Assembly (NCBI GenBank): GCA_009773185.1
Contig: WPIF01000020.1
Coordinates: 1 to 51,567 of the forward strand
Direction of reading: 5' to 3'
Length of the DNA: 51,567 bases
DNA from: Nitrospirota bacterium
GTDB lineage: Bacteria > Nitrospirota > Thermodesulfovibrionia > Thermodesulfovibrionales > UBA1546
Shown here: positions 4,343 through 22,200 of the stretch, piece after piece
Numbering within the stretch: position 1 is the stretch's first letter
Layout: every line of letters starts with the position of its first letter
Made by a program: the position numbers and the translations under genes
The notes under the pieces: generated by a model
The model's database searches: none
Told to the model about the DNA's origin: nothing
Seen by the model: the letters and a program-made list of their open reading frames with translations, nothing else

Positions 4343-4819
4343 ATGCTTTTGGGAATTATGGCTGACACGCATGACAATTTGCCTATGACCAAAAAGGCGG
4401 TTGAGCTTTTCAATGGCAGAAAGGTTGATTATATGATACATGCAGGGGATTTCACGTCACCATTTACATTAAAGCTGTTCAGCGAGCTGAAATGCAGGTA
4501 TGCCGGGGTATTCGGCAACAATGATGGCGATAAGCTTCTTTTGCAGGAAAGGTCAGAGGGCAGCATTAAAAACCAGCCGCTTATGCTGACACTTGATAAT
4601 AAAAAAATAGTAGTCGTTCATGAACATCATACGGTTAATGCGCTTGCAGACAGCGGGCATTTTGACGTTGTTGTTTACGGCCATACACACGAGCCCCTCG
4701 TAAAAAGGAATGCCGCGCTGTTAATTAATCCTGGAGAAGTTTGCGGGTGGCTTTATGGCAAACCAACAGCGGCTATTTTAGACCTGAACAAGATGGATGC
4801 AGAGATTATTGGGCTTTGA
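4343..4819 (+). CDS. YfcE/MJ0936-type metallophosphoesterase
   Basis: The 158-residue protein has all calcineurin-like phosphoesterase motifs: D-T-H (8-10), GDF (35-37), GVFGNNDG, VVHEHH and YGHTHEP. These bind two divalent metals. Short single-domain members hydrolyse phosphodiesters in vitro; the natural substrate is unknown. Length and order match the family exactly. It lies 55 bp after marC and is weakly preceded by AAGGGG. It could be co-transcribed with marC. Confidence 0.9.
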   Translation: MLLGIMADTHDNLPMTKKAVELFNGRKVDYMIHAGDFTSPFTLKLFSELKCRYAGVFGNNDGDKLLLQERSEGSIKNQPLMLTLDNKKIVVVHEHHTVNALADSGHFDVVVYGHTHEPLVKRNAALLINPGEVCGWLYGKPTAAILDLNKMDAEIIGL

Positions 4820-4821
4820 TC

Positions 4822-6198
4822 TTACTCCTTAAAAACAATTGCCTTGGTTTTTTCTTTTCTGCCTATGTCTTCAGCCAGTTTTGAAGCCTCTTTCCTGTTT
4901 TCGAACTTGCCGATTAGGACTCTGTAAATTATCTCTTTTTCTTTTTGCGCCTTGCTTGTAAAGGCATCATAGCCTTTGTCTTTATACTGGTTTGTCAATG
5001 CAACTGCATTAGCCTCGTTTTTAAATGCGCCGACCTGAATGTGAAAAGCTGCTTTGGCTGACGGCTTAGCCTCAGGTTTTGGGGCAGACGCAGTAGTTGC
5101 CGGTTTAACTGTGAGTATCGGTACATGTGCAGATTTGTCTGCTGGTTTGGCAGCAGGCGCCGGAGCAGCCTTGGGCGCAGGTACAGGGGCCGCAGGTGTC
5201 TGTGCAGGCGCAGGTTTAGCTGGCTGCTGAGGGACTTGCTGTTCCTGAGAGGGAATGGCTTTAGCAGCTTCCTGTTGAACAGGCTGGGCCGGCTTAACAG
5301 CAACCGGCGTCTTGGGCTTTAGTCCGGGCAACATGCCTTTTTTATAAAGTATAATTCCTGATGCGCCAAGTATGATAATGATTACAACTCCGGCAATAAT
5401 TGGTACTAACAGTCTGTTTCTCATCCCTCTCCTCCTTATGTTTTTTTTCAGCACATAAGTCCTTTCACGTTCTCCGCTCATTCCCTCATCAGATTTTTTA
5501 CCCGGGGTATCTATATAATCAGTTTTTTCTTCTTCTTTTGCACCACTTTTTATTTGTTTGGTCAGAGTCTTATCATCGAAAGAGTGAATATCTTCCTTCA
5601 TCGTTACCAGGGTCTTATCAGCAAAATCCATATCTTCCGGTGTCTTTACTGCGGTTCTGTCTGAAAAATCCGTTTCTTCAGAAACCTCATTTTCAAGGCC
5701 AGGCATCAGGGGTGGAAACCCCGGCATATCCTGTCCTTTTACCAGTGTCTCTTCTTCAGGATTGAACCCCGAATCCTCTTCTGCTTCAGATTGCTGCAGC
5801 CCGGTTGCGGGCTGGACATCGAAGGATTTCATGGAAAGGATCTCCCTGGTCTTTGAAACAAGTTCTTCAGGGCTGAAAGGTTTTTTAAGCGAACCAACAA
5901 TACCGTATAAGGCAGTATAACGCGGGTCTGTAGCTCCTTCAAAGGTTGAAAGTACAACAATTGGAATGTTCTTGAGGGATTTCGTACTATGGATTGTCTT
6001 GCAGACCTCAAGACCGCTTGTGCCGGTCATTGCAGGATTTACAAATATCAATAAGGGATTAACTTTTTTTGCCATTGTGAGGCCAATGTCCCCGCTTTGG
6101 GCTGTGAAAACAAGATAATCTTCAGATTCAAGGGTTGACACAATCTGCTGTGTAGTCTCTGAGTCGGTATCAATTACAAGGATTGTTTCGCCTAACAT
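4822..6198 (-). CDS. Pseudo-receiver, transmembrane, SPOR-domain protein
   Basis: The 458-residue protein has three parts. Residues 1-120 form a response-regulator receiver fold, with DTD at 10-12 and KKP at 105-107, but the phospho-acceptor position is Asn54 (FVNPAMTGTSG), so ordinary phosphorylation is not expected. An acidic linker (130-250) contains three related DKT/DRT motifs. One membrane helix spans about 263-285. A Pro/Ala-rich region then leads to a SPOR domain (about 381-458, FHIQVGAFKNEANA...), a fold that binds denuded septal peptidoglycan. Topology should be receiver in the cytoplasm and SPOR in the periplasm. It follows the amidase and MamK-like genes, so a role linking a cytoplasmic filament or signal to septal wall is inferred. 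Confidence 0.85.
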   Translation of the reverse strand: MLGETILVIDTDSETTQQIVSTLESEDYLVFTAQSGDIGLTMAKKVNPLLIFVNPAMTGTSGLEVCKTIHSTKSLKNIPIVVLSTFEGATDPRYTALYGIVGSLKKPFSPEELVSKTREILSMKSFDVQPATGLQQSEAEEDSGFNPEEETLVKGQDMPGFPPLMPGLENEVSEETDFSDRTAVKTPEDMDFADKTLVTMKEDIHSFDDKTLTKQIKSGAKEEEKTDYIDTPGKKSDEGMSGERERTYVLKKNIRRRGMRNRLLVPIIAGVVIIIILGASGIILYKKGMLPGLKPKTPVAVKPAQPVQQEAAKAIPSQEQQVPQQPAKPAPAQTPAAPVPAPKAAPAPAAKPADKSAHVPILTVKPATTASAPKPEAKPSAKAAFHIQVGAFKNEANAVALTNQYKDKGYDAFTSKAQKEKEIIYRVLIGKFENRKEASKLAEDIGRKEKTKAIVFKE

Positions 6199-6220
6199 AA
6201 TGAATTACTCCTCTTTTTTA

Positions 6221-7249
6221 TTATAGCGGTTCCCAGTATTTTGCAGGCATATCCTGTGCCAGTTTTAGCGCACCGTTTGAACCTGAAAACAGAGGATCCT
6301 CCACACAGGTTACATTACAGGGGCCGTACTCTTTCAATGCATTCTGCAGATATTCACGTAAGCCCCTTATCAGGCTGCCGCCGCCTGCGAGCACGATATT
6401 GTTTTTTATCCTTACCTGGAACTCCGGGTCAAATCTTGCTATCATCTCGGTGGTTGTTTCTACCAGAGCAGGCAGGATGCTTTCGCATGCGCGTTTGACC
6501 TCATTTTTAATGTCATGCATAACAGGCTTCCCGTCAACCGGGATTTCTACACGAATATCTCCGGAAAGCTCCTTTACAAAACTGTATTGTTCTTTGAACT
6601 GGCGGACCATATTTTTATTGAACTTTGAATTAGGGTATTTCTCGGTCAGATAGCTGTAAAGCTGCTCGTCTATGTAATCCCCGGCAGCCAGTATCGTTTT
6701 CTGATCCTCTTCTAATGGTATAGTGCCATGCATGATACATAAGTCAGTTGTGCCGGCGCCTATGTCTATTACCAGCGAATTATTGAGCAGGTTCATCCCG
6801 TAAGCCACTGCAAACGGTTCTGAGACAACCATTAGTGAATGTGCAAATTCTGATACAGCCCTTCTGATTGCAAGTTTGTTTACCTTTAACGTATCGGCAG
6901 GCACGCCAACTACAGCATATATCTTCTGCTCAGGCTGAGGTTTTGCAAGTTCGATAAGGTATTTAATTATTTCTTTAACTGCCTCTTCGCTTTTTTCGAT
7001 GCCTTCTTTTATTACTCCGTGTTCGAGAGGCCTGCAAAGGTCAAGCGAGAGCCGGTTCTTGAGGGCCTCTGCTCCGAAGAGGACGGGCTTTCCTACTACC
7101 TGCAAAGAGATAAAGTCTTTGGGCCAGCCTACATAGCTTTCTATCCATTCCCTTGTGTTGTTGCTTGCAGAGATTGAACTTCTCGATGTCCCGAGGTCAA
7201 TCCCTACGAATAAGATGTTACCTTCTCCCTGAGCTTCTTTTTGCTTCAT
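6221..7249 (-). CDS. MamK-like bacterial actin
   Basis: The 342-residue actin/Hsp70-fold ATPase has phosphate 1 motif GIDLGTS (near 17-23), phosphate 2 motif VIDIGAGTTDLC, and the adenosine motif NIVLAGGGSLIRGL. Its resemblance goes beyond MreB. The segments VGWPKDFISLQVVGKP, GVPADTLKVNK, VVSEPFAVAYGM and the C-terminal NVTCVEDPLFSGSNGALKLA with PAKYWEPL follow recalled magnetosome MamK almost position for position. MamK forms cytoplasmic filaments that align magnetosomes. No mam or mad genes are visible here, so a different filament role is likely. The start overlaps the upstream amidase by 32 bp and the SPOR gene follows after 22 bp. Confidence 0.88.
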   Translation of the reverse strand: MKQKEAQGEGNILFVGIDLGTSRSSISASNNTREWIESYVGWPKDFISLQVVGKPVLFGAEALKNRLSLDLCRPLEHGVIKEGIEKSEEAVKEIIKYLIELAKPQPEQKIYAVVGVPADTLKVNKLAIRRAVSEFAHSLMVVSEPFAVAYGMNLLNNSLVIDIGAGTTDLCIMHGTIPLEEDQKTILAAGDYIDEQLYSYLTEKYPNSKFNKNMVRQFKEQYSFVKELSGDIRVEIPVDGKPVMHDIKNEVKRACESILPALVETTTEMIARFDPEFQVRIKNNIVLAGGGSLIRGLREYLQNALKEYGPCNVTCVEDPLFSGSNGALKLAQDMPAKYWEPL

Positions 7250-8288
7250 AGCTTACCTCTCCTTTATTTAGATAATCCAGTATGCCAGCCTCGAGATAAC
7301 GCGCAATATTTTCTCTGTGGCTTTCGGTATTAAGTTCTATCTCTTCCTCTCTGTTGCTGAGGCATGAGACCTCTGCCAGAACAGCGGGGACATCTACTCC
7401 CAGCAAGACAACAAATGGCGCTCTCTTAACGCCAAAGTTATAAACATTTGCATTTTGTTTTTTGCTGTTCAGGAAAAGATTTTTCTGTATAGAGGCCGCA
7501 AACTCTTTAGATTCCTGGAGTTTCAGTGTCTCCCCTATCTTTCCTATTATTTCTTTAAAATCGCTCAGCCCGTAATGTGAGCCTGCATTTTCCTGTTCGG
7601 CAAGCCTTAGTGTTTTGTCATCGTCAGACGGCCCGAAATAATAAGTCTCAATGATGTTTATGGGCTTGGAAGGCAGGTAATTCAGGTGTATGGATATGAA
7701 GAGGTCTGCCCTGCTTGAGCGGGCCAATTCCACCCTTTGATTTAATGGGAGAGTTGTGTCTTGTTCACGTGTGATCAGGATATTATAACGGCCGTATTTT
7801 CTAAGCCGCTCCCTCAGTTTTTTTGCTATATCCAATGTAATATCCTTTTCTTTGGTCCCCATTGTGCCTTTAGTGCCTGAATCAGAGCCGCCGTGTCCGG
7901 GGTCTATCATAATTGTCTTTACCTCCAGGCCGAACATGCGGCTTAACGGCATTTCCTTGCCGCCGAGAAAGGCTTGGTAATCCGAAGGCTTGACCACCGG
8001 TTTTTCCGCAGGCAGGGAAGAAGGCCTTTGTGTTATGAGGCTTGCTGTTGTCTGTTTTTCCGGGAACAAAGGAAGATTAAGATAGTTCCCGTTTACCAAG
8101 ATACTGAGAAGTGTTATAGAGAAAAAAAGAAACATTTTTTTAAAAAAGACAGGTACCCTGCCTGAGAGGATAACGGGATTTTTCCCGATTATTCTCAGAT
8201 TGTCTTCATAGACGCCTCTGAGAATGGCCTTCCTCACTTTTAGCTCTCTTTTTTTAGGGATCATGAATAACATAATAGATAGCATCAC
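7218..8288 (-). CDS. N-acetylmuramoyl-L-alanine amidase
   Basis: The protein (up to 356 residues) has an Amidase_3 zinc domain from about 122 to the end: IMIDPGHGGSDSGT with the first His ligand, a Glu ligand in TKEKDITLD, ISIHLN with the third ligand, and the catalytic Glu in LAEVSCLSN. This class cleaves the amide between muramic acid and the stem peptide. A hydrophobic segment at about 51-66 acts as signal anchor, preceded by a basic stretch. The true start is uncertain: GTG at 8288 or ATGs a few codons in, none with a good ribosome binding site. The 32-bp overlap with the MamK-like gene argues for coordinated expression. Confidence 0.88.
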   Translation of the reverse strand: MMLSIMLFMIPKKRELKVRKAILRGVYEDNLRIIGKNPVILSGRVPVFFKKMFLFFSITLLSILVNGNYLNLPLFPEKQTTASLITQRPSSLPAEKPVVKPSDYQAFLGGKEMPLSRMFGLEVKTIMIDPGHGGSDSGTKGTMGTKEKDITLDIAKKLRERLRKYGRYNILITREQDTTLPLNQRVELARSSRADLFISIHLNYLPSKPINIIETYYFGPSDDDKTLRLAEQENAGSHYGLSDFKEIIGKIGETLKLQESKEFAASIQKNLFLNSKKQNANVYNFGVKRAPFVVLLGVDVPAVLAEVSCLSNREEEIELNTESHRENIARYLEAGILDYLNKGEVSYEAKRSSGRR

Positions 8289-9341: not shown

Positions 9342-10922
9342 GTGAGAGCGCATGTAAAGAAAACCATCTATTCCCTGACAGGGAAATTAATTATTACCAT
9401 AGGCACTCTGATGGTGGTGGGAAGCACTATCTTCTGGTATTTTCTTATACATTTTCAGGAGAAGGAACTTCTCAGGAATTCTGTAAAATACGGCCATTCT
9501 TTTGTAGACTTTGTAGAAAAAAGCACGCGTTACGGAATGCTCACCTTTCAGCAGCTCCTGATACAGCAGACGGTTGAGGCTATAGGTTCAGCCGAGGGGA
9601 TTGTCAAGATAAGGATGTTCGATGGCAGAGGCAAGATTGCATATTCTTCGGTAAAAGAAGAGAAGGGCACCATGCTGGGCAAAAACGAATCTGTCTGTAT
9701 GCTCTGCCATTCCAATTCCCGCAAGGCAGTAGAGATGCCAAGCTGGTCTATAAAAAAAGACAAGGATGGGTACAGGATACTGAATCTTCTGCAGCCCATT
9801 TATAATGAACCTGCATGTTATACATCTTCCTGCCATGTGCATTCCATCGGGACCGCCATTCTCGGATTTACAGAGGCCGATATATCTTTATCCCTTCTCG
9901 ATAAGGCCGTAAAAAAGCAGGAACTGGCCATAACAGCCTATGTGCTTGGTTTTATATGCCTGCTCTCTGTGGTCCTTTGTACGATACTATGGAACCTTGT
10001 ATCTACCCCTCTCAGTGTACTTACGCATGGCATGGAGAGAGTGGCTGCGGGTGAACTGGACCATACTGTGAAGATAGATACGAAGGATGAGATGGGCGAG
10101 CTTGCAACGGCATTTAACGCCATGACATTTGACCTCAAGAAGGCAAAGGACGAGCTTGTTGAATGGGGCAATACCCTTGAGAAAAAGGTTGAAGAGAAAA
10201 CCGAAGAGATCCGCAAGGCGCAGGCAAAACTCATACATTCTGAAAAACTTGCATCACTTGGAAGGATGGCAGCGGGTGTGGCTCATGAGATAAACAGCCC
10301 CTTAACAGGCATCGTTACCTTTGGCCATCTCCTGCTTAAAAAATTTCCGGAGGGCAGCCAGGAACGGGAAGATGTTGAGGTCATTATTGAACAGGCCAAC
10401 AGATGTTCGAATATCATAAAAGGACTTCTTGGCTTTGCAAGGGCAAGCTCGGCAGAGAAAAGCTCTATAAATGTAAATGATATAGTAAACAGTTCTTTAA
10501 ACATGGTGCGGCATAAGGCAGACTTTTTTAATATCAAGATAGTTCTGAATTTTGATGAGTCTCTCTCTTCCATAAAGGCCGATGCATCCCAGATTCAGCA
10601 GGTATTTTTAAATATGATTATCAATGCAGCAGATGCAATGGAAGGGAAAGGGACCTTTACCGTTACCACACGAAAAGTGGATGAAAACGGCGTTCCCTTT
10701 GTGGAGGTTGAATTTAATGATTCAGGCCCTGGCATAAATGAAAAAGACATTCCAAAACTTTTCGAGCCTTTCTTTACGACAAAACCTGTTGGCAAGGGCA
10801 CCGGGCTTGGCCTTGCTGTAAGTCACGGTATTATTCAGGACCACGGGGGCAGAATACGCGTGAGGAGCACAATTGGAAAAGGTACAAGTTTCTTTGTGAG
10901 GCTCCCTTTTTATGAGGGATAA
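9342..10922 (+). CDS. c-type heme sensor histidine kinase
   Basis: The 526-residue protein has a membrane helix at about 16-36, a periplasmic sensor (37-197), a second helix (198-218), HAMP, a coiled coil and a HisKA/HATPase core. The sensor contains CMLCH (119-123), a canonical CxxCH heme-attachment site, and CYTSSCH (159-165), a CX4CH variant. It therefore probably binds one or two c-type hemes and senses redox state or a gas ligand. The H-box GVAHEINSPLTG has phospho-acceptor H315; N (NMIINAADAM), G1 (DSGPGI) and G2 (GTGLGLAVS) boxes are intact. It heads a run of response regulators, its likely partners. The GTG start lacks a Shine-Dalgarno. Confidence 0.9.
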   Translation: MRAHVKKTIYSLTGKLIITIGTLMVVGSTIFWYFLIHFQEKELLRNSVKYGHSFVDFVEKSTRYGMLTFQQLLIQQTVEAIGSAEGIVKIRMFDGRGKIAYSSVKEEKGTMLGKNESVCMLCHSNSRKAVEMPSWSIKKDKDGYRILNLLQPIYNEPACYTSSCHVHSIGTAILGFTEADISLSLLDKAVKKQELAITAYVLGFICLLSVVLCTILWNLVSTPLSVLTHGMERVAAGELDHTVKIDTKDEMGELATAFNAMTFDLKKAKDELVEWGNTLEKKVEEKTEEIRKAQAKLIHSEKLASLGRMAAGVAHEINSPLTGIVTFGHLLLKKFPEGSQEREDVEVIIEQANRCSNIIKGLLGFARASSAEKSSINVNDIVNSSLNMVRHKADFFNIKIVLNFDESLSSIKADASQIQQVFLNMIINAADAMEGKGTFTVTTRKVDENGVPFVEVEFNDSGPGINEKDIPKLFEPFFTTKPVGKGTGLGLAVSHGIIQDHGGRIRVRSTIGKGTSFFVRLPFYEG

Positions 10923-10959: not shown

Positions 10960-11337
10960 ATGAATAAAGGCAATATCCTTGTAGTAGATGATGAAGACAT
11001 AGTGCTCTTGAGCTGCAAAAGGGCGCTCACTCCTGAAGGTTATAATGTCAAGACGGTCAGAAGAGGAGCAGATGGCATAACTCTGCTTGGAAATGAAGCC
11101 TTTGACATTGTAATGACAGACCTGAAGATGCCTGATATGGACGGCATAGAAGTCCTCCGGAGGGTAAAGGAGGGCTGGCCTGCCATTGAGGTCATTATTA
11201 TAACAGGTTATCAGACGGTCGAGACTGCTGTGAAGGCCATAAAACTGGGGGCGTTTGATTATATTGAAAAGCCTTTTACGCCGGAACAGATTTTAACAGT
11301 AGTAAATAATGCTGTTGCGCGCAGGGCAAATCAGTAG
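10960..11337 (+). CDS. Single-domain response regulator
   Basis: The 125-residue protein is a CheY-like receiver: DDE at 10-12, the phospho-acceptor Asp in MTDLKMPDMDG, Thr in IITGY, and Lys in YIEKPF. It has no output domain, so it acts as a phosphorelay intermediate or by protein contact. Its sequence is very close to the receivers of the next three regulators (shared LKMPDMDGIEVLRRV with the NtrC-type gene), suggesting tandem duplication. GGAGG precedes the ATG. It lies 37 bp after the heme kinase. Confidence 0.92.
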   Translation: MNKGNILVVDDEDIVLLSCKRALTPEGYNVKTVRRGADGITLLGNEAFDIVMTDLKMPDMDGIEVLRRVKEGWPAIEVIIITGYQTVETAVKAIKLGAFDYIEKPFTPEQILTVVNNAVARRANQ

Positions 11338-11345
11338 CAGGCAGA

Positions 11346-12746
11346 ATGGATAGGCCCAGGATCCTTGTCATTGATGATGAAGATATAGTAAGGATCAGCT
11401 GTCAAAGGGCGCTTGAACCGGAAGGTTATGATATTACGGCAGTTAAAAGCGGAGCAGATGGTTTAAGGCTGCTGGAAAATGAGGCCTTTGACCTCGTGCT
11501 GACAGACCTGAAGATGCCTGATATGGACGGCATAGAGGTTCTCAGAAGGGTAAGGGAGGGCTGGCCCGACACCGAGGTAATACTGATAACCGGCTATGGC
11601 ACTGTGGCTACTGCTGTAAATGCGATGAAGCTCGGGGCCTTTGATTATATAGAAAAACCATTCAGGCCCAATGAACTGATTATACTTGTCTCAAGGTCTC
11701 TTGAAAGAAAGCGCCTTCTCCTTGAAAATCTCAGGCTCAGAAGCGAACTTACAGGACAGTATAAACTCGAAAATATTATCGGCACATCAAAAACAATGCA
11801 GCGGGTTTTCCATCTCATTGCAAAGGTGGCCTCTACAGGGAGCACAGTTCTCATAACCGGAGAAAGCGGGACAGGAAAGGAATTGATTGCCAGGGCTATC
11901 CACTATAACAGCCCAAGGAAGGACAGGCCTTTTATAGTGGTTGATTGCGGAACCATCCCTGATGCATTAATAGAGTCTGAATTATTCGGGCATGTTAAAG
12001 GCGCTTTCACAGGCGCGATAGAAAACAGAAAAGGGCTGATGGAGCTTGCTGATGAAGGTTCCCTGTTCCTTGATGAGATAGGTAATCTTAACCTTTCAAC
12101 TCAGGCTAAACTCCTGCGTGCGCTGCAGGAAAAAGAATTCAGGCCGCTCGGAGGCAAAAATCCTGTAAAGTGTGATATGCGGTTCATTGTCGCAACTAAC
12201 AAGGATCTGGAGGCCATGACTAAAGAAGGTACATTCAGGGAAGATTTTTTTTACAGGCTTAATGTCTTTCCTGTAAGCATCCCGCCTTTAAGAGACAGGA
12301 AAGAAGATATCCCCATGCTTGCATACCACTTTCTTCAGAAATACAGCAAGGAGACAGGAAAGGACGTTACACATATCTCTGCAGAGACAATGAAGGCGCT
12401 TATCAATTATGAGTGGCCCGGCAATGTCAGGGAGTTGGAAAATACAATTCAGAGGGCCATAATACTCTGTCAGGGCAAGACCCTGCAGCCAGCGCATCTT
12501 CCTCCGCCTGGCGTGGCAGATGATGGTGAAGGAGTTCCCAGGACCATCGTCGAACTGAAGGGCAGGAAAAAAGGCCTTCGCCTGAAATCAATAGAAGATA
12601 TTGAAAAGGCTTTTCTTGTGGATGCCCTGAAAAGAAATGAGTGGAACATATCAAGGGCTGCGCTTGACGTTGGAATGCAGCGCACGAATTTCCATGCCCT
12701 CCTCAAAAAACACAACATCTCCAGAGTGCAGGCAAAGACAAGATAG
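11346..12746 (+). CDS. NtrC-family sigma-54 response regulator
   Basis: The 466-residue protein has a receiver (1-120, Asp54 in VLTDLKMP), an AAA+ domain with Walker A GESGTGKE (172-179) and the sigma-54-contacting loop GAFTGA (219-224), and a C-terminal Fis-type helix-turn-helix (SRAALDVGMQRTNFHALLKKH). It should activate sigma-54 promoters when phosphorylated, probably by the heme kinase. The gene begins 8 bp after the single-domain regulator stop. I found no convincing -24/-12 promoter nearby, so its targets may lie elsewhere. Confidence 0.93.
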   Translation: MDRPRILVIDDEDIVRISCQRALEPEGYDITAVKSGADGLRLLENEAFDLVLTDLKMPDMDGIEVLRRVREGWPDTEVILITGYGTVATAVNAMKLGAFDYIEKPFRPNELIILVSRSLERKRLLLENLRLRSELTGQYKLENIIGTSKTMQRVFHLIAKVASTGSTVLITGESGTGKELIARAIHYNSPRKDRPFIVVDCGTIPDALIESELFGHVKGAFTGAIENRKGLMELADEGSLFLDEIGNLNLSTQAKLLRALQEKEFRPLGGKNPVKCDMRFIVATNKDLEAMTKEGTFREDFFYRLNVFPVSIPPLRDRKEDIPMLAYHFLQKYSKETGKDVTHISAETMKALINYEWPGNVRELENTIQRAIILCQGKTLQPAHLPPPGVADDGEGVPRTIVELKGRKKGLRLKSIEDIEKAFLVDALKRNEWNISRAALDVGMQRTNFHALLKKHNISRVQAKTR

Positions 12747-13025: not shown

Positions 13026-13793
13026 ATGGAAAAAAAGGGGAAGATATTAGTATTAGATGATGACCCTGTAGTAACTCTGAGCTGTAAAAGAATCCTTGGC
13101 GCTGAAGGCTACAATATCATAACTGTAGACAAGGGCGAAGACGCTATCAAGAGAATCTCTAATGAGGAATTCGATCTTCTGATTTCAGACATAAGGCTGC
13201 CTGATGTTAACGGCATTACTGTATTAAAAGAGTCAAAGATTATACAGCCCAAGCTGGACGTGGTCATAATTACAGGTTACCCGACATTGGACGATGCCAA
13301 AGAATCTGTAAGGCTCGGCGCATTCGAATACATAGAGAAGCCCTTCACTCCTGATTTTATGATGAATGTTGCCAGTAAGGTTTTTGACCAGAGGGGATGG
13401 ATTTTAAGAAAGGCGTTCATTGATGAATTCAGGAACGACATTGTATCTCTCAGGGACACGCAGAATCCTGTTATCTTTTATAAAGAAGGGACATGGGCCA
13501 GGCCCATAAAGGATGGGCTCTGGGAGATCGGCTTTGACATAAGATACTGGCTGCTCAGCGGACAGCTTATGTATATTGATATTCCTGAGGGGCTTAAGAT
13601 GGTTACCGCAGGAGCGTCCTTCGGAAAAATCTTATCGGGTTCCGGTCAGACAGAGGACCTTGTTTCACCGATGAACGGCATGGTCAAGGAGACAAATACA
13701 AATGCCAATACAGCCATGAGCGCATTAATCAGGGATAACCTGAGCGAAGGGTGGCTTCTCTGGCTGGCGAGGGTCCAGCCTATAACGGTTTAA
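13026..13793 (+). CDS. Receiver fused to GcvH-like domain
   Basis: The 255-residue protein has a receiver (1-120, acceptor Asp in LLISDIRLPDVNG, Lys in YIEKPF). The rest resembles glycine-cleavage H protein: GLWEIGFDIRYWLLSGQLMYIDIP, then a hammerhead-like SPMNGMVKETN and GWLLWL. The lipoyl-lysine position is replaced (SGSGQTEDLVSP in place of the usual ESVKAxSD), so lipoylation is not expected. GcvH-like proteins without lipoate may serve as scaffolds. GGAGG lies before the ATG. It follows a 279-bp intergenic gap in which I see no clear element, and it precedes the receiver-NuoE fusion by 41 bp. Confidence 0.75.
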   Translation: MEKKGKILVLDDDPVVTLSCKRILGAEGYNIITVDKGEDAIKRISNEEFDLLISDIRLPDVNGITVLKESKIIQPKLDVVIITGYPTLDDAKESVRLGAFEYIEKPFTPDFMMNVASKVFDQRGWILRKAFIDEFRNDIVSLRDTQNPVIFYKEGTWARPIKDGLWEIGFDIRYWLLSGQLMYIDIPEGLKMVTAGASFGKILSGSGQTEDLVSPMNGMVKETNTNANTAMSALIRDNLSEGWLLWLARVQPITV

Positions 13794-13834: not shown

Positions 13835-14764
13835 ATGGCGGAAAAACCCAGGATTTTAATTGTTGACGATGAGCTTATAGTCATAAGAAGTGCCGAGAGG
13901 GTCCTTAAGGCAGAGGGGTATGATGTTGAAGGCGCTCTGGGCGGAAGAGAAGCGATTACGAAAATAGAGCAAAACAGCTATGACCTTGTATTTACTGACC
14001 TGAAGATGCCTGAAGTTGACGGGATAACCCTTATCAGGTGGATAAAGAAAACAAAGCCTTCCATAGGGATTGTCATCATTACAGGATATCCGTCGCAGGA
14101 TACTATAAAGGAAGCGCTTGAATTAGGAATAATTGACTATGTGCCAAAACCATTTACTCCTTCGGTGCTTTTAGATGTTACTGAAAGGGCTGCTGAATGG
14201 ATAAAGGGCAGAAAACCTGAAGAAAAAAAGGTTAAAGAGGAATTCCCTCCTGCAATGGAAGCAGAACTGGAGAGGGTCATCTCCGACTTAAGGCGCAAGC
14301 AGGGCGCTTTAATACCTGTTCTTCAGCGCGCACAGGAAATTGTAGGGTATCTTCCCCCTGTAGTGCAGAAGAAAATTTCAAAGGGATTAAATATACCGGT
14401 AGCAGAAGTGCACAGCGTTGTATCATTCTATTCCTTTTTTACGATGAAGCCGAGGGGCGACCATAATATCAGGGTATGCCTTGGCACTGCATGTTATGTC
14501 AAAGGGATTGAACGCGTCCTGAGTAAAATTACAGATGCCTTAAAGATAAACATCGGAGATACTACGGAAAACAGAAAATTTTCCCTGGAAGGTGTGCGCT
14601 GCCTCGGGGCCTGCGGGCTTGCGCCTGTAATGGTCATTGACCAGGAAACACATGGCGCCATGACTCCAAAGAAGGCGCTGGAGATTATAGGCCAGTATGA
14701 ACCGGCAGTCCTGGAAGCAGTATCTGCCTCAGGGATGGAAGAAATGGCGGAGAAGGAGGGGTAA
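13835..14764 (+). CDS. Receiver fused to NuoE-type [2Fe-2S] subunit
   Basis: Residues 1-120 are a complete receiver (D55 in FTDLKMP, K105 in YVPKPF). Residues about 145-295 are a NuoE/HndA-like thioredoxin-fold [2Fe-2S] domain: helical QEIVGYLPPVVQKKIS, VVSFYSFF, CLGTAC (C215, C220) and CLGACG (C256, C260). All four cluster ligands are present. NuoE normally partners NuoF to pass electrons from NADH. Fusion to a receiver suggests phosphorylation could gate electron transfer or complex assembly; that is inference. The gene begins with GGGG upstream of the ATG and the HndB-like gene follows 1 bp after the stop. Confidence 0.9.
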   Translation: MAEKPRILIVDDELIVIRSAERVLKAEGYDVEGALGGREAITKIEQNSYDLVFTDLKMPEVDGITLIRWIKKTKPSIGIVIITGYPSQDTIKEALELGIIDYVPKPFTPSVLLDVTERAAEWIKGRKPEEKKVKEEFPPAMEAELERVISDLRRKQGALIPVLQRAQEIVGYLPPVVQKKISKGLNIPVAEVHSVVSFYSFFTMKPRGDHNIRVCLGTACYVKGIERVLSKITDALKINIGDTTENRKFSLEGVRCLGACGLAPVMVIDQETHGAMTPKKALEIIGQYEPAVLEAVSASGMEEMAEKEG

Positions 14765-15268: not shown

Positions 15269-17137
15269 ATGGAAAAGTTTCGTGCAAATTTAATGTTATG
15301 TGCAGGAACGGGCTGTGTTGCCAGCGGAACAACTAAAGTCAGAGACGCCCTCCGTGATGAGATTCAAAAAAGAGGGCTTGATGAGGAAATAAAGATAGTC
15401 CTGACAGGATGCAACGGCTATTGCGCTGAAGGCCCTGTCCTGTCGGTTTATCCTGATGAAATCTTTTATCAAAAATTAACAGTTGAAGAAATCCCCAAAT
15501 TAGTTGAAGAGCATTTTCTCAAAGGCAGGCCCTACGAGAAATTAATGTTTAAAGAACCCGAGAAAAAGACAGCAATACCGATGATGAAAGATATCCCTTT
15601 CTTCAAGCATCAGGTACTAAGGGTTTTAAGAAACAAGGGACTTATAGACCCTGAAAAGATTGAAGAATACATTGCCAGAGACGGTTATCAGGCAGCAGCA
15701 AAGGCGCTTACCCAGATGACTCAGGAAGATATAATCAAGGTAATAAAAGATTCCGGATTAAGAGGGAGAGGCGGCGCAGGCTTTCCTACAGGCCTGAAAT
15801 GGGACTTTGCGTCCAAAGTTAAATCCGATATCAAATACATGCTCTGTAACGGCGATGAAGGAGACCCGGGCGCATTTATGGACAGGTCTGTTATGGAGGC
15901 AGACCCTCATTCAGTAATAGAGGGCATGATTATAGGGGCCAGGGCCATAGGAGCGCATCACGGTTACATATATGTCAGGGCTGAATATCCATTGGCTGTT
16001 AAACGCCTTCAGCTTGCAATAGACCAGGCTACGGAGGCAGGGCTTCTCGGCAATAATATTCTTGATACAGGGTTTGATTTCAAACTTGAAATATATCTGG
16101 GAGCTGGCGCTTTTGTATGCGGTGAAGAGACTGCGCTTATGCGTTCCCTTGAGGGAAAACGCGGGATGCCCAGGCCGAGGCCTCCATTCCCTGCTCACAA
16201 GGGGTTGTGGGACAAGCCGTCTGTTCTGAATAATGTTGAAACCCTGGCACAGATAGCTCCCATTATCCTGAATGGTTCTGACTGGTACAGGAGCCTTGGC
16301 ACTGAGAAGAGCACAGGCACTAAAGTTTTTGCACTTACAGGCGCTATAAATAATGTTGGTCTGGTTGAGGTCCCGATGGGAATTCCGCTCAGAACTATCA
16401 TATATGACATAGGCGGAGGACCTAAGAAGGGAAGAAAATTCAAGGCGGTTCAGCTTGGCGGGCCTTCAGGCGGCTGCATCCCTGAAAGTCTCCTTGATAT
16501 ACCTGTAACATACGAAGATATCGTTGCAACAGGAGCTATTGTGGGTTCAGGTGGAATGGTCGTTATGGATGACAATACATGCATGGTAGGCACAGCCAAA
16601 TTCTTCCTTGAATTTACAGCAGATGAATCCTGCGGCAAATGCACGCCGTGCAGGGTGGGAACAAAAATACTGCTTGATATGCTTACTGATATTACTGAAG
16701 GCAGGGGAAAAGAAGGCGATATGGAGACACTCGAAGACCTGGGCAGGGATATAATTGCCACATCTCTTTGCGGCCTTGGACAGACAGCGCCGAACCCGGT
16801 GCTTACAACAATAAAATACTTCAGGGACGAATATGAATCCCATATAAAACACAAGTGGTGCAAGGCAGGCGTATGCCGCAGCCTGACCACCTTCTGGATT
16901 GACGAAAAAATGTGCAAGGGCTGCGGAGCCTGCTTGAGAGGGTGCCCGTCCAAGGCCATAATGGGCGAAAAGAAAAAGCCGCACAAGATTATTCAGGAAC
17001 TTTGCGTGCGTTGCAGAAGCTGTTATGAGGCATGCAAATTCAAGTCTATAAAAATTCTGCCTGCCAACTTTGAAGGCGACCCTTCGGAATTAGTCGGAGT
17101 GACAACCGAAACTGAAACAAAAAAGGGGGAATCATAA
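15269..17137 (+). CDS. NuoF-like NADH-binding flavoprotein subunit
   Basis: The 622-residue protein has an N-terminal [2Fe-2S] thioredoxin-like domain (MLCAGTGCVASG and LTGCNGYCAEGP). The NuoF core follows: GRGGAGFPTG (FMN/NADH), NGDEGDPGAFMDR, GAGAFVCGEETAL, an SLBB-like region, and ESCGKCTPCRVGT for a [4Fe-4S] cluster. The C-terminus is a 2[4Fe-4S] ferredoxin domain (CKGCGACLRGCPSKA, CVRCRSCYEACKF). It matches HydB/HndC-type diaphorase subunits. The start at 15269 follows GGAGG; an upstream in-frame start would lie in the TTGAATA repeats. It exchanges electrons between NAD(P)H and the iron-sulfur chain. Confidence 0.94.
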   Translation: MEKFRANLMLCAGTGCVASGTTKVRDALRDEIQKRGLDEEIKIVLTGCNGYCAEGPVLSVYPDEIFYQKLTVEEIPKLVEEHFLKGRPYEKLMFKEPEKKTAIPMMKDIPFFKHQVLRVLRNKGLIDPEKIEEYIARDGYQAAAKALTQMTQEDIIKVIKDSGLRGRGGAGFPTGLKWDFASKVKSDIKYMLCNGDEGDPGAFMDRSVMEADPHSVIEGMIIGARAIGAHHGYIYVRAEYPLAVKRLQLAIDQATEAGLLGNNILDTGFDFKLEIYLGAGAFVCGEETALMRSLEGKRGMPRPRPPFPAHKGLWDKPSVLNNVETLAQIAPIILNGSDWYRSLGTEKSTGTKVFALTGAINNVGLVEVPMGIPLRTIIYDIGGGPKKGRKFKAVQLGGPSGGCIPESLLDIPVTYEDIVATGAIVGSGGMVVMDDNTCMVGTAKFFLEFTADESCGKCTPCRVGTKILLDMLTDITEGRGKEGDMETLEDLGRDIIATSLCGLGQTAPNPVLTTIKYFRDEYESHIKHKWCKAGVCRSLTTFWIDEKMCKGCGACLRGCPSKAIMGEKKKPHKIIQELCVRCRSCYEACKFKSIKILPANFEGDPSELVGVTTETETKKGES

Positions 17138-17138
17138 A

Positions 17139-19592
17139 ATGGTAGACCTTATAATTGACAATAAAAAGATATCCGTGGAAGAGGGCACTACAATTCTTAA
17201 GGCAGCCCAGATGAACGGGATTAAGATACCAAATATGTGCTATGACAAAAGGCTCAGGCCTTACGGAGGATGCAGGCTCTGTGTTGTTGAAGTCGAAGGC
17301 CAGCCCAGGCTTTTTGCCTCATGTTCGACACCTGCGGCTCCCAACATGGTAGTTAAAACAGACACTCCAAAGTTAAGAAAAGCGCGTCAGACGGTACTTG
17401 AACTTTTACTTATCCATCATCCATTGGACTGCCCGGTATGCGATAAGGCAGGCGAATGCGACCTTCAGGACATAGCCTATGAATACGGCAAACCCGAAGG
17501 CCGTTTTAAAAGGCACAGGAAAGACATGCCTCCTGATGTAAGGGGGCCATTGGTTGAATTGACTGCCAACAGATGCATCCTCTGCGGCAAATGTGTGCGT
17601 ATATGCTCCGAGCATCAGGGCCGGGGCGCATTGGGATTTATCGGCAGGGGCTTCCCCACAGTTGTTCAGCCTGCATTCGGTGAAATCCTTGAATGTGATT
17701 ACTGCGGGCAGTGTATAGACATATGCCCTACAGGCGCGCTTTTGAGCAAGCCCTTCAAGTTTCAGGCGCGTGCATGGTTTCTCGAGGAAAAAGACACTAT
17801 CTGTCCTTTCTGCGGCTGCGGATGCACCCTGACACTGGGAATAAGGGAAGGAAAGATACTGAGGTCAAGGGCCAAAGAAGATAACGGCAGAAGCGAGGGT
17901 AACCTGTGCGGAAGAGGCAGGTTTGGGTTTGATTACATATACAGCGAGAACCGCCTTAAGACGCCTATGATAAGAAAAGAGGGGAACCTTGTCCCTGCGA
18001 CATGGGAAGAGGCATTGACATATATAAGCGAAAGCCTGAAATACGTTATAAGCTCCTATGGCAGGGAATCTGTAGGCGCCATAGGTTCTCATAGGTGCAC
18101 AACTGAAGATAACTTCATGCTGAAAAAATTCATGCTGAATGTTATTGGTTCAGATAATATAGACTCTTCTGCTGCCTTTGGATATTCAAAGGTCCAGAAG
18201 GCGCTGGATAAGGCTTTGGGGATGAAAACACACCGGATAAACCTGAAAGCGCCTTTGGGCAAGGAAATTATTCTGATAATAGAGTCGGATATAAGCATTA
18301 CCCACCCTGTTTTCGGCCTTAATATACTTCAGGCAAAGAGAGAAGGCTCAAACCTGATTGTGGCGGATTCAAGGGAGACAAAGCTTACACGGCACAGTTT
18401 AAGCCATCTGAGAATGAAACAGGGGACCTCAGTTGCATTTCTTAACGGGTTAATGAAACTCATTATAGACAAGGGCCTTTTCAACAGGGAGATTGTCTCA
18501 AAGTTCCCGGGTTTCCCGGAGTTCGAAAAGAGCCTGAAAGACTATACTGCTGATAAGGTGTCAAAGATTACAGGCATATCCGGAGAAGACCTTGCAGCTA
18601 CGGCAGAGATGCTTGCAAAGGCAAAGAGCAGGATGCTCTCCTTTACTGTCAGCCTTACAGAAAACACAAAAGGCGCTGACACGGTGCTTGCTGCCTCTAA
18701 TATGATAATCCTTATGGGAGAGGACGCAGGTTCGCTGCAGATACCCGCGGAATATGCAAACACATACGGGCTGTATAATATGGGGGCCGGGGCGTCAGGC
18801 AGTAAAAATATATTCGATATGCTGTATAAATCCGGCTCTTTTCATGCGCTCTATATAATGGGTGAAGACCCTGTTTCTGCTTTTCCGCACAATTCAAAGA
18901 TAATGGGGAACCTTAAATCCCTTGAACTGCTTGTTGTTCAGGATATTGCCTTAACAGAGACAGCGAAGCTGGCTCATGTGGTCCTTCCTGCTTCAAGCTG
19001 GGCTGAAAAAGACGGCACATTTATCAATGCTGAGGGTGCAACCCAGAAGTTAAAAAAGATAGTTGATGCTCCGGGACAGTCGCTGCCTGACTGGCAGATA
19101 CTTAGGAACCTGTCTTTATCCATGGGAAGAGAGATTGCCGTCAGAAATATTGAAGATATCTCAGAAGAAATCAAGAACACAATACAGGAAGAACCTGCAT
19201 CAGATAAAAGGGCCTTTACCCCTGTGTCTTATGCAGCGGCAGAAGAGCCTGACACAGAATATCCGCTGGCGTTTGTAACGAGAGATGTCCTGCAGCACTC
19301 GGGAACCATGTCAACAAGGTCCAAGGCCCTTGACCTGGTTGTCTCAGAGGCATTTCTTGAGATAAATGATGAAGATGCCGGAAAGTATGCGATATCCGAC
19401 AACAGCCATGTCAAGGTGACATCAAGGAGGGGCACTGTTTATCTGAAGGCAAAGGTTTCAGATGCAGTTCCGGCAGGGACAGTCTTTACGTCAGTTCATT
19501 TTCCGCACGGACGCGTCAATGCGCTTACGCATTTTTCAGAAAACGGCACAGCATACACAGACGCTGTGAAGATAGAGGCAGTAAAAGTCTGA
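17139..19592 (+). CDS. NuoG/FdhA-like molybdopterin-fold subunit lacking Cys/Sec
   Basis: The 817-residue protein has an N-terminal [2Fe-2S] ferredoxin domain (C34, C45, C48, C62), a His-Cys cluster motif (HHPLDCPVCDKAGEC), two [4Fe-4S] motifs (CILCGKCVRIC, CDYCGQCIDICP), a CPFCGCGC...GNLCGRG cluster motif and a molybdopterin oxidoreductase fold, with HSGTMSTRS near the C-terminus. In formate dehydrogenases a Cys or Sec ligates the metal. The aligned stretch here is NIDSSAAFGYSKVQ, with Gly at that position, so formate oxidation is unlikely and a NuoG-like electron-wire role fits better. There is no H-cluster, so it is not an [FeFe]-hydrogenase. It follows the NuoF-like stop by 1 bp. Confidence 0.85.
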   Translation: MVDLIIDNKKISVEEGTTILKAAQMNGIKIPNMCYDKRLRPYGGCRLCVVEVEGQPRLFASCSTPAAPNMVVKTDTPKLRKARQTVLELLLIHHPLDCPVCDKAGECDLQDIAYEYGKPEGRFKRHRKDMPPDVRGPLVELTANRCILCGKCVRICSEHQGRGALGFIGRGFPTVVQPAFGEILECDYCGQCIDICPTGALLSKPFKFQARAWFLEEKDTICPFCGCGCTLTLGIREGKILRSRAKEDNGRSEGNLCGRGRFGFDYIYSENRLKTPMIRKEGNLVPATWEEALTYISESLKYVISSYGRESVGAIGSHRCTTEDNFMLKKFMLNVIGSDNIDSSAAFGYSKVQKALDKALGMKTHRINLKAPLGKEIILIIESDISITHPVFGLNILQAKREGSNLIVADSRETKLTRHSLSHLRMKQGTSVAFLNGLMKLIIDKGLFNREIVSKFPGFPEFEKSLKDYTADKVSKITGISGEDLAATAEMLAKAKSRMLSFTVSLTENTKGADTVLAASNMIILMGEDAGSLQIPAEYANTYGLYNMGAGASGSKNIFDMLYKSGSFHALYIMGEDPVSAFPHNSKIMGNLKSLELLVVQDIALTETAKLAHVVLPASSWAEKDGTFINAEGATQKLKKIVDAPGQSLPDWQILRNLSLSMGREIAVRNIEDISEEIKNTIQEEPASDKRAFTPVSYAAAEEPDTEYPLAFVTRDVLQHSGTMSTRSKALDLVVSEAFLEINDEDAGKYAISDNSHVKVTSRRGTVYLKAKVSDAVPAGTVFTSVHFPHGRVNALTHFSENGTAYTDAVKIEAVKV

Positions 19593-19610: not shown

Positions 19611-19967
19611 ATGAAATTGGGCGAGATCAAAAAGATACTCAATGCAGTAGTGCTTTCAAAAAATGGCGATATGGAGCTTGAAATAGGGAGGGCCTACTGC
19701 GCTGACCTTATGAGCGATGTCCTTGCATTCTCCATCACCAACTCCCTTTTGATAACAGGCCTGACCAATTCTCAGGTCATACGCACCGCTGATATGGCTG
19801 ATATGAATGCAATAGTATTTGTTCAGGGCAAACGGCCTGACCTGGAAACAATTTCTCTTGCGGAAGAAAAAAATATTCCTTTACTTGTGACTGATTTTTC
19901 GATGTTCGGCACATGCGGCAGGCTTTTTGAGAAGGGGCTTCAGGGGCGTTCTAACAGAGATAAATGA
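19611..19967 (+). CDS. DRTGG-domain protein (first copy)
   Basis: The 118-residue protein contains GRAYCADLMSDVLAFSITNSLLITGLTNSQVIRTADM and IVFVQGKRPDLETISLAEEKNIPLLVTDFSMFGTCGRL, the layout of DRTGG domains. These are found with CBS or phosphotransferase modules and recurrently beside NADH-linked hydrogenase operons. The biochemical function is not established. It starts 18 bp after the NuoG-like gene and overlaps the next start by 4 bp, so it is in the same operon. A related copy lies two genes downstream. Confidence 0.8.
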   Translation: MKLGEIKKILNAVVLSKNGDMELEIGRAYCADLMSDVLAFSITNSLLITGLTNSQVIRTADMADMNAIVFVQGKRPDLETISLAEEKNIPLLVTDFSMFGTCGRLFEKGLQGRSNRDK

Positions 19968-20398
19968 ATAAGACTGCAGAGGGTGTATTTTTTCTGACGG
20001 GGAAAGATTTTGCAAAGGCGGGCGTTGCCTCAAGCAATTTAAAAGCAATACTTGAAAGCATGGGCGTTCCGCCTGATATTATCCGGAGGGCGGCCATAGC
20101 AGCCTTTGAGGCAGAAGTGAATGTGATTATATATGCCGTGGCAGGCATGATGCACTATTCCATAACGCAGGAAATGATAAAGATTATTGTTCAGGACATG
20201 GGGCCGGGCATTCCTGATATCGCACTTGCAATGACAGAAGGTTATTCAACTGCGCCTGATTACATCAGGGAGATGGGGTTCGGTTCCGGCATGGGGCTTC
20301 CGAATATCAAAAAAAGTACGGACAAACTGACTGTAAATTCCGTTGTCGGAGAGGGGACCACACTAGAGTTTATTATAAATTTAAATAAAACTGCCTGA
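19964..20398 (+). CDS. Anti-sigma/RsbT-like ATPase domain protein
   Basis: The 144-residue single GHKL ATPase domain has an N-box AAFEAEVNVIIYA, a G1 box QDMGPGIPD and a G2 box GFGSGMGLPNIK. Size and motif spacing match RsbT/SpoIIAB-type serine kinases and anti-sigma factors. There is no His-containing dimerisation domain. It lies between two DRTGG genes, an arrangement also seen near HydABC-type operons. It may phosphorylate or sequester a partner in response to the redox complex. That role is inferred. Confidence 0.82.
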   Translation: MNKTAEGVFFLTGKDFAKAGVASSNLKAILESMGVPPDIIRRAAIAAFEAEVNVIIYAVAGMMHYSITQEMIKIIVQDMGPGIPDIALAMTEGYSTAPDYIREMGFGSGMGLPNIKKSTDKLTVNSVVGEGTTLEFIINLNKTA

Positions 20399-20409
20399 AG
20401 GAGTAAACC

Positions 20410-20751
20410 ATGAAACTGCAGGAGCTTGTTAACAGCCTTTCTCTTGAAGTAAAGACGCCGGGAATGGATTTAAACCGGGAAGTAACCGGAGGTTATGCGA
20501 GCGACCTCCTGTCTGATGTAATCGGGAATGCAAAGGAAGGGTCTGTCTGGATAACGCTTCAGGTCCACCTTAATATCGTGGCAGTAGCTTCTTTAAAGGG
20601 CCTTTCAGGAATCGTACTTGTGAATAACAGGATGCCAGATGACGATACCCTGAAAAAGGCCTCTGAAGAGAATATCCCGGTAATGACAAGCCCGCTTGCA
20701 GCCTTTGAACTCATTGGCAGGCTTTATACCCTTGGCCTGAGATGCCGGTAG
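20410..20751 (+). CDS. DRTGG-domain protein (second copy)
   Basis: The 113-residue protein resembles the DRTGG protein two genes upstream: GGYASDLLSDVIGNAKEGSVWITLQ, GIVLVNNRMPDDDTLKKASEENIPVMTSPLAAFELIGRL. It is probably the product of a duplication. GAAGGAG precedes the ATG. The stop overlaps the PHP gene start by 10 bp, indicating tight coupling. A partner or sensor role in the redox operon is likely but unproven. Confidence 0.8.
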   Translation: MKLQELVNSLSLEVKTPGMDLNREVTGGYASDLLSDVIGNAKEGSVWITLQVHLNIVAVASLKGLSGIVLVNNRMPDDDTLKKASEENIPVMTSPLAAFELIGRLYTLGLRCR

Positions 20752-21482
20752 AATTTGTAGCAGACCTTCATATTCACACATGTCTTTCCCCCTGCGCAGA
20801 GCTTTCGATGACGCCGAAGGGAATCGTAGAAAAGGCTGCATCGCTCGGGATAAACATAATAGCTGTCTGCGACCATAATTCTGCTGAAAATGTTGAAGTA
20901 ACAAAAGGCCTTGCAAAGAAAAAAGGGATAAATGTCATTGCAGGAATGGAAATCAGTTCTTCGGAAGAGGTTCATGTCCTTGGTTTTTTCAATGACACGG
21001 AAAGCGTCCTTAAGATGCAGGCAGTTGTTTATGAGAACCTTCAGGCAGGAGAAAATGACGAGGATAAATTCGGGATGCAGGTTGTTGTTAATGAAGACAA
21101 TGAGGTCTTGGGGTTTAATAAGAGGCTTCTGATAGGCGCTACAAGCCTCTCAGTGAATAAAATAGTTGATTTGATACACGGTTTTAACGGCATTGCAGCA
21201 GCAAGCCATATTGACAGAGATGTGTTTGGAATCATAGGGCAGCTCGGGTTCATTCATCCTGACATTAAATTTGATGCGCTGGAAATCTCCTTCAGGCTGA
21301 AGCTTAAAGAAGCGCTGATAAGATACGGCGCATACAGTCATATCCCGTGGATTTCCTCATCTGACGCGCACAGGATAGAAGACATAGGCAGAAGGACTAC
21401 AAGATTTCTTATGAACCATTCCACATTTGAGGAATTATTTCTGGCCCTCAAGGGCGCTGAAGGAAGAAAGATTGCGTTTTAA
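20742..21482 (+). CDS. PHP-domain phosphoesterase
   Basis: The 246-residue protein begins ADLHIHTCLSPCAE, the metal-binding HxH of PHP domains. It continues with IIAVCDHNSAEN, IAGMEISSSEEVHVLG, AASHIDR and ISSSDAHRIEDIG, which supply the remaining His, Asp and Glu ligands. PHP domains hydrolyse phosphoesters; in this neighbourhood the substrate could be a nucleotide or phosphoprotein, but that is speculation. It is coupled by overlap to the second DRTGG gene. A branched repeat element lies directly downstream, before the HATPase gene. Confidence 0.88.
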   Translation: MPVEFVADLHIHTCLSPCAELSMTPKGIVEKAASLGINIIAVCDHNSAENVEVTKGLAKKKGINVIAGMEISSSEEVHVLGFFNDTESVLKMQAVVYENLQAGENDEDKFGMQVVVNEDNEVLGFNKRLLIGATSLSVNKIVDLIHGFNGIAAASHIDRDVFGIIGQLGFIHPDIKFDALEISFRLKLKEALIRYGAYSHIPWISSSDAHRIEDIGRRTTRFLMNHSTFEELFLALKGAEGRKIAF

Positions 21483-21654: not shown

Positions 21655-22200
21655 ATGGAAGACATCTCTCTCCACATACTTGATATAGCGGAGAATTCTA
21701 TAGCTGCGGGTGCAACTATCATAAAAATCACAATAGCCGAGGATACAGGTAAAGACCTTCTCTCTGTTGAAATTGAAGATAACGGCAGAGGCATCCCTGA
21801 GGAGTTCATAAAAAAGGTCCTGGACCCTTTTTATACAACGCGCACAACAAGAAAAACCGGTTTCGGGCTTTCATTCCTTGCGCAGTCGGCAAGGGAGACA
21901 GGCGGAGATATCTCAATAAAATCAAAAGAGGGTAAAGGCACTGCAATATCTGCCTGTTTTAAATACAGCCACATAGACAGAAAGCCTCTCGGTAATATTG
22001 CTGATACCCTCATTGTTTTAATTGCAGGCAATCCTCATATTGATTTTCTCTATGAACACAGGCGTAATGGCAATGTTTATTCCATCAATACAAAGGAGAT
22101 AAGGCCGGAACTCGGAGAGGTGCCGCTGAATTTTCCGGCTGTGATAAATGTTATAAGAAAAGACATAGAGGATGGGATTAAAGGGCTGGGCATGGTATAA
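21655..22200 (+). CDS. Standalone HATPase-domain protein
   Basis: The 181-residue protein is a histidine-kinase-type ATPase domain (HILDIAENSIAAGA as N-box, EDNGRGIPE as G1, KTGFGLSFLAQ as G2, KEGKGTAISACF) without any dimerisation/His domain. The last 70 residues form a further region I do not recognise. Similar lone ATPase proteins accompany DRTGG and PHP genes in hydrogenase-type operons. It could transfer phosphate to, or regulate, the nearby receiver-bearing proteins. AGAGAG before the ATG is a weak ribosome binding site. Confidence 0.8.
   Translation: MEDISLHILDIAENSIAAGATIIKITIAEDTGKDLLSVEIEDNGRGIPEEFIKKVLDPFYTTRTTRKTGFGLSFLAQSARETGGDISIKSKEGKGTAISACFKYSHIDRKPLGNIADTLIVLIAGNPHIDFLYEHRRNGNVYSINTKEIRPELGEVPLNFPAVINVIRKDIEDGIKGLGMV

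Follow-up and report, generated by a model that had tools for sequence, protein, structure and literature searches.

A receiver domain fused to the HydC/BfuC-type subunit of a putative electron-bifurcating oxidoreductase in Nitrospirota

Organisation of the gene cluster

The window analysed here comprises positions 1 to 51,567 of contig WPIF01000020.1 of the Nitrospirota bacterium assembly GCA_009773185.1. It contains a single intact open reading frame of 309 codons, without any frame break, in which a response regulator receiver (REC) domain is joined to a NuoE-type [2Fe-2S] subunit (Table 1). Genes predicted to encode a membrane sensor histidine kinase, a stand-alone receiver, an NtrC-type regulator and a REC-GcvH fusion are located upstream in the same orientation, while the genes of the putative partner subunits and of several accessory proteins follow downstream. 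Further upstream, the opposite strand (4822-6198, -) encodes a fusion of a receiver-like and a SPOR domain, which are separated by a likely transmembrane segment.

Table 1. Predicted genes and features of the REC-NuoE gene cluster (positions refer to the window).
Feature	Position	Strand	Basis
Membrane sensor histidine kinase	9342..10922	+	CxxCH and CxxxxCH in presumed extracytoplasmic part
Stand-alone receiver	10960..11337	+	
NtrC-type sigma-54 response regulator	11346..12746	+	
REC-GcvH fusion	13026..13793	+	Pfam, homologue alignment
REC-NuoE (REC-HydC/BfuC) fusion gene	13835..14764	+	309 aa, ATG start; Pfam, alignment, fused homologues
Receiver domain, residues 7-114	13853..14176	+	Pfam PF00072 Response_reg, E 1e-28
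Phospho-acceptor D55 codon	13997-13999	+	
REC helix 5 (end) and flexible linker	14177..14269	+	Residues 127-135 pLDDT <50
NuoE/HydC-type [2Fe-2S] thioredoxin-like domain, residues 146-288	14270..14698	+	Pfam PF01257 2Fe-2S_thioredx, E 3e-48
Small thioredoxin-like [2Fe-2S] ferredoxin, 127 aa	14766..15149	+	NCBIfam fdxn_Clost weak match below cut-off; syntenic
HydB/BfuB-type NuoF	15269..17137	+	Best PDB 7t2r_B; conserved cysteines
NuoG/BfuA-type subunit, molybdopterin-type domain	17139..19592	+	FDH catalytic Cys aligns to Gly348
DRTGG - HATPase - DRTGG - PHP accessory genes	19611..21482	+	
Second HATPase accessory gene	21655..22200	+	

The REC-NuoE protein

A preceding sequence-only reading had described this gene as a receiver fused to a NuoE subunit with all key residues kept in both halves, and the frame, the Pfam domains and an alignment of 75 distinct Nitrospirota homologues bear this out. 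The residues it had named (D55 and K105 in the receiver; C215, C220, C256 and C260 in the NuoE half) were all confirmed at their positions, and the acid pair D11/D12 and T83 were found in the receiver as well. The protein thus carries the full REC signature of acid pair, phospho-acceptor Asp, Thr/Ser and Lys together with the NuoE/HydC cluster motif C-x4-C ... C-x3-C.

In the AlphaFold model both domains are well formed, the linker between them has very low confidence, and no confident orientation of the REC domain relative to the NuoE domain was obtained (pTM 0.41). In Foldseek the two halves matched separately, the first to CheY-like receivers (3crn, TM 0.94 by target length) and the second to HydC/NuoE chains; a search of a viral structure library returned mostly generic receiver matches.

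Conservation and distribution of the fusion

The search for further REC-NuoE fusions that had been proposed with the sequence-only reading recovered them repeatedly in Nitrospirota. The residues D11, D12, D55, T83 and K105 are kept in 74 of the 75 aligned homologues and the four cluster cysteines in all 75. Many of the near-invariant receiver residues outside the active site fall within positions 82-119 (beta4-alpha4-beta5-alpha5), as would be expected of a docking face, and the linker varies in length from 45 to 54 residues between K105 and residue 154.

Full-length fused homologues were detected in 40 of 61 genomes, comprising the source genome and 60 close relatives. Within the phylum, of which 296 genomes were sampled, they were confined to members of the same order or class; the small number of matches in other groups of the phylum cover the NuoE half only. 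In the named collection the fused matches are titled Nitrospirae, Nitrospirota, Nitrospira, Thermodesulfovibrionales, Thermodesulfovibrionia or unclassified bacterium, and the host group consists mostly of uncultured Nitrospirota. Three loci with an apparently unfused Nitrospirota NuoE (L109, L111, L115) proved to be N-masked or to lie at contig ends and were thus uninformative. A second, decayed REC-NuoE copy, the frame of which loses the FeS half, was noticed in another genome (L144 of G227, ~6470-7300), with NuoF and NuoG homologues downstream.

Two other phyla, with approximately 300 genomes scanned in each, yielded no fusion at the thresholds used; the scan covered the best 80 matches, so that more remote fusions may exist elsewhere. 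The long open frames flagged in these two phyla were, at the six loci read, NuoE genes without a fused receiver. The NuoE half alone occurs at loci titled Desulfarculaceae, Proteobacteria, Desulfatitalea, Spirochaetes and Deltaproteobacteria, and several of the unfused loci outside Nitrospirota adjoin the same DRTGG-HATPase-DRTGG-PHP-HATPase genes. On the simplest reading of these sequences, the receiver was presumably joined onto a pre-existing gene cluster in one lineage. No REC-NuoE or REC-HydC fusion was found described in the open-access PMC literature, which was the scope searched.

Identity of the enzyme

The best PDB matches of the NuoE half were 7t2r_C, 8a6t_C and 7q4v_C (150, 142 and 134 bits), which represent subunit C of the NiFe-HydABCSL enzyme and of two HydABC hydrogenases. 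A NuoF gene lies at most 1.5 kb downstream of the REC-NuoE gene in 65 of 70 loci. In the window this gene encodes a HydB of full length, best matched in the PDB by a solved bifurcating complex (7t2r_B, 836 bits, aligned over residues 4-595), with an N-terminal thioredoxin-like [2Fe-2S] domain, an FMN domain, the NuoF [4Fe-4S] site, a CxxxxC pair and two C-terminal [4Fe-4S] sites. Cysteines are thus present for each of the clusters B1-B5 that characterise BfuB, and the HydB-type cysteines are kept in 71-76 of 76 homologues; the sets were assigned to the individual clusters by analogy with known HydB structures.

According to Schut et al. (PMC9304861), the BfuBC core defines the bifurcating Bfu family, whereas non-bifurcating relatives lack clusters B2-B5. 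BfuA, BfuB and BfuC are co-encoded in the window. All FeS motifs of the A subunit are present in 70 of 70 homologues, and the position aligned with the catalytic cysteine of the formate dehydrogenases 6tg9 and 9wxb is a glycine in the same 70. An assignment as formate dehydrogenase (Fdh-Bfu) was rejected, as Gly348 replaces the Cys/Sec ligand.

An identity as NuoE of complex I could be ruled out, since the adjacent NuoF carries the extra N- and C-terminal FeS domains found only in HydB; no further complex I subunit was detected among the neighbouring genes scanned. Judged from their sequences, the partners of REC-NuoE are a HydABC/Bfu-type electron-bifurcating core and not complex I. The subunits presumably form one complex, and the cofactor motifs suggest that it bifurcates electrons, with NADH, ferredoxin and a third substrate as the expected partners.

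The source genome encodes two more HydB-type modules, both with a plain NuoE, the receiver being restricted to the module described here. One of them adjoins genes that, judged by eye from the sequence, resemble those of CODH/ACS. The other (L185, ~4721-7468, -, on contig 19 of the same genome) comprises a formate dehydrogenase alpha gene beside an unfused NuoE-HydB pair; in this gene the Cys/Sec position is occupied by an in-frame TGA, and the module is likely a selenocysteine-containing bifurcating formate dehydrogenase. At three further loci (L065, L068, L073) one REC-NuoE gene is followed by two NuoF-NuoG pairs in succession, so that a single receiver subunit may serve two enzymes.

Upstream signalling genes

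The kinase contains two c-type-haem-like motifs ahead of its HAMP domain, C119-x2-C122-H123, kept in 35 of 36 relatives, and the non-canonical C159-x4-C164-H165, kept in all 36. No Pfam sensor domain was matched in this protein. The motifs suggest covalently bound haem, which makes the kinase a candidate di-haem sensor of redox state or of a gas.

The REC-GcvH protein retains the receiver phosphorylation residues and is conserved beside REC-NuoE. A function as a working lipoyl carrier was rejected, given that no lysine occupies the lipoyl position in the 60 sequences viewed of 74 aligned. In the complete genome G006 (L182 on contig 5, 3425-6269) the kinase, the lone receiver and REC-GcvH are retained without REC-NuoE or a dedicated HydB, next to genes that look like hrcA-grpE-dnaK-dnaJ; this arrangement suggests a role of REC-GcvH separate from the enzyme. 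A sigma-54 promoter ahead of the REC-GcvH gene was sought, and no site matching 11 of 12 consensus positions occurs anywhere in the window.

Association of the kinase with the receiver

Among the source genome and its 60 relatives, kinase and REC-NuoE occur together in 39 and are both missing in 17, leaving five discordant genomes (Fisher p 2e-10, calculated without regard to relatedness). The genomes with neither gene are spread over several families, so that repeated joint loss or absence is likely. REC-NuoE without the kinase was found once, in a 420-contig assembly (G003). Four genomes have the kinase only: G002 is fragmented, in G042 the REC-NuoE gene is cut at a contig end and in G049 the match is mainly to the kinase core, while REC-NuoE is truly absent from G006. 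In some relatives (e.g. G017, G026, G037, G046, G058) the kinase match is likewise limited to the core, which indicates that the sensor differs there. At the level of the locus, the kinase is encoded nearby in 31 of 48 loci with sufficient upstream DNA.

Furthermore, the phosphorylation site D55 was lost in three genomes (G173, G195, G197), in all of which the best kinase match was core-only and a full-length match was absent. The acid pair is also altered in G173 and G195, and G197 has Asn in place of D55. As G173 and G195 belong to one genus, the losses probably represent two independent events. There are exceptions on both sides: G185 has an intact receiver and lacks a full-length kinase match, and in L104 the phospho-acceptor histidine of the kinase is replaced by Asn, yet the receiver is intact.

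The receivers encoded in the cluster share the motif S-[CA]-x-R-[AIV]-L in helix alpha1, the face by which receivers contact their kinases; in the REC-NuoE homologues S19 is present in 73 of 75 and C or A at position 20 in 72 of 75. The motif was not found in the 22 other receivers of the source genome that were compared, and its occurrence throughout the cluster agrees with a shared kinase. The three co-encoded receivers are also the best REC matches to the REC-NuoE receiver in the genome; a tree of these short domains lacked the resolution to place it with or apart from them. Taken at the level of gene content and motifs, the kinase is the likely phosphodonor of the REC-NuoE receiver.

Proposed mechanism and alternative explanations

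We consider it somewhat probable that a haem-based signal leads to phosphorylation of the receiver on the C subunit of the bifurcating enzyme and thereby determines its activity or assembly. In this scheme, the HydC/BfuC subunit of a bifurcating oxidoreductase of the HydABC type (Bfu family) would carry an apparently working N-terminal receiver, and a redox or gas signal perceived by the membrane kinase would result in phosphorylation of D55 and probably of the co-encoded receivers. The phosphate would alter the alpha4-beta5-alpha5 face, which may then dock next to the FMN on the NuoE/HydB module, or dimerise and so pair complexes; docking or pairing would decide on turnover or assembly of the bifurcating core. 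The kinase would affect transcription as well, through the NtrC regulator. Haem binding, the nature of the signal and the pairing of kinase and receiver are putative in this scheme, and we infer all steps from the phosphate to catalysis, including the direction in which activity would change and the way in which this would come about. A narrower version, in which the haem kinase directly switches the enzyme via the receiver on its FMN-proximal subunit, with NtrC and the lipoate-less REC-GcvH as parallel outputs, is put forward tentatively.

The sequence-only reading had suggested that the fusion would either place the electron entry from NADH under direct phospho-control or let the redox state of the cluster alter receiver phosphorylation. 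Phospho-control of an NADH-linked enzyme gains indirect support from the conserved phosphorylation residues, the co-occurrence with the kinase and the absence of the kinase where the receiver site is lost. The assignment of the enzyme, however, had to be refined: the subunit corresponds to HydC/BfuC in an electron-bifurcating module of the HydABC type and not to NuoE of complex I.

In phosphate-sink arrangements several receivers share one kinase, and several receivers are likewise encoded in the one kinase cluster here. The REC domain, fused to an abundant enzyme, could drain phosphate from the NtrC branch or serve as a localisation tag tethering the complex to the membrane kinase, leaving catalysis unchanged. 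A flexible linker of variable length would suit a tether. However, a sink or tag explains neither why REC is joined to the FMN-proximal subunit in every lineage nor why the beta4-alpha5 face is so strongly conserved, and thus seems unlikely.

The signal might also run in reverse, with the NuoE cluster reporting the redox state of NADH/ferredoxin to the receiver and the changed phosphorylation feeding into the kinase-NtrC output. NuoE is thioredoxin-like and response regulators can dock on thioredoxin (PMC9584953); the NtrC regulator and the kinase are moreover co-encoded with REC-NuoE. Yet no phosphotransfer route back to NtrC is evident, no Hpt domain being found in the genes scanned, and the kinase has haem-like motifs of its own, which renders this scenario quite improbable.

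A mainly structural receiver, which stabilises the complex and for which phosphorylation is vestigial, would be in line with the three genomes that keep the domain after the loss of D55, two of them with an altered acid pair as well; a purely phospho-driven role would not require its retention. Given that nearly all aligned homologues preserve the active site and that receiver decay coincides with the absence of the kinase, such a role appears scarcely probable.

That the fusion is an artefact, be it a frame or assembly error joining two genes or an internal start yielding two proteins, is highly improbable, since the same fused frame is found in dozens of genomes independent of each other, single-contig chromosomes among them (40/61 genomes; 75 distinct proteins), which rules out a frame error or chimaera and upholds the single protein frame against the error scenario considered in the sequence-only reading. 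Met141 is a possible start of free NuoE, present in only 48 of 75 homologues, and may give this additional product in some species; 13 of the 75 have no Met anywhere in residues 120-154.

Comparison with known systems

REC-NuoE is most similar to the HydC/BfuC subunits of HydABC/Bfu enzymes (7t2r, 8a6t, 7q4v; PMC9304861), as indicated by the closest structures for the NuoE half, by the complete set of expected cluster cysteines in the HydB partner and by the DRTGG-HATPase-PHP accessory genes that also adjoin unfused versions in other bacteria. It differs from them in the phosphorylatable receiver on the C subunit, and the module differs in an A subunit with a molybdopterin-type domain and Gly in place of the FDH cysteine as well as in the lack of a hydrogenase subunit in the operon. 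The NuoE of complex I shares the fold and the [2Fe-2S] motif; its NuoF partner, in contrast, lacks the HydB-only domains. Some relatives encode a separate complex I: in L050 (14-7083, -) an operon with its own unfused NuoE divergently adjoins the kinase gene, and many other relatives likewise have NuoE/F/G homologues beside the kinase, which are missing from that position in this window.

The lone receiver Rv3143 binds mycobacterial complex I, with crosslinks mainly to NuoD, and alters respiration (PMC9274095); according to work cited there, it was phosphorylated neither by the kinases tested nor by acetyl phosphate. In both cases a receiver is attached to an NADH dehydrogenase-type complex, here a predicted one. 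Rv3143 is a separate protein, whereas the receiver described here is covalently joined to NuoE and accompanied by a candidate kinase. Among response regulators, those with enzymatic output similarly combine a receiver with a following non-DNA-binding domain, but that domain is a self-contained enzyme such as a cyclase or phosphodiesterase, while here it is only one of the several subunits that make up a redox enzyme.

For the kinase, a preprint (PMC12889525) describes sCache_heme sensors (DUF3365/Tll0287), the signalling versions of which are reported to bind NO. These are likewise extracytoplasmic sensors with a CxxCH motif; the kinase differs in its second, CxxxxCH motif and in having no Pfam sensor-domain match. 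This haem-Cache family with its NO-binding members is a possible parallel, to be taken as a lead only.

Implications

The new elements are the novel output of a response regulator and the regulatory domain on a Bfu-type enzyme; Rv3143 is a partial precedent. Electron-bifurcating enzymes set the sharing of electrons between NADH and ferredoxin in anaerobes, and their fast post-translational control is poorly known. With a receiver joined to the flavin-adjacent subunit, a candidate kinase and natural variants that have lost the phosphorylation site, such control becomes directly testable. If true, the proposed mechanism would add one subunit of a multi-component redox complex to the outputs of response regulators and would represent two-component control of flavin-based electron bifurcation itself. 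Energy metabolism in these Nitrospirota may thus be tuned at the enzyme itself and not through gene expression only.
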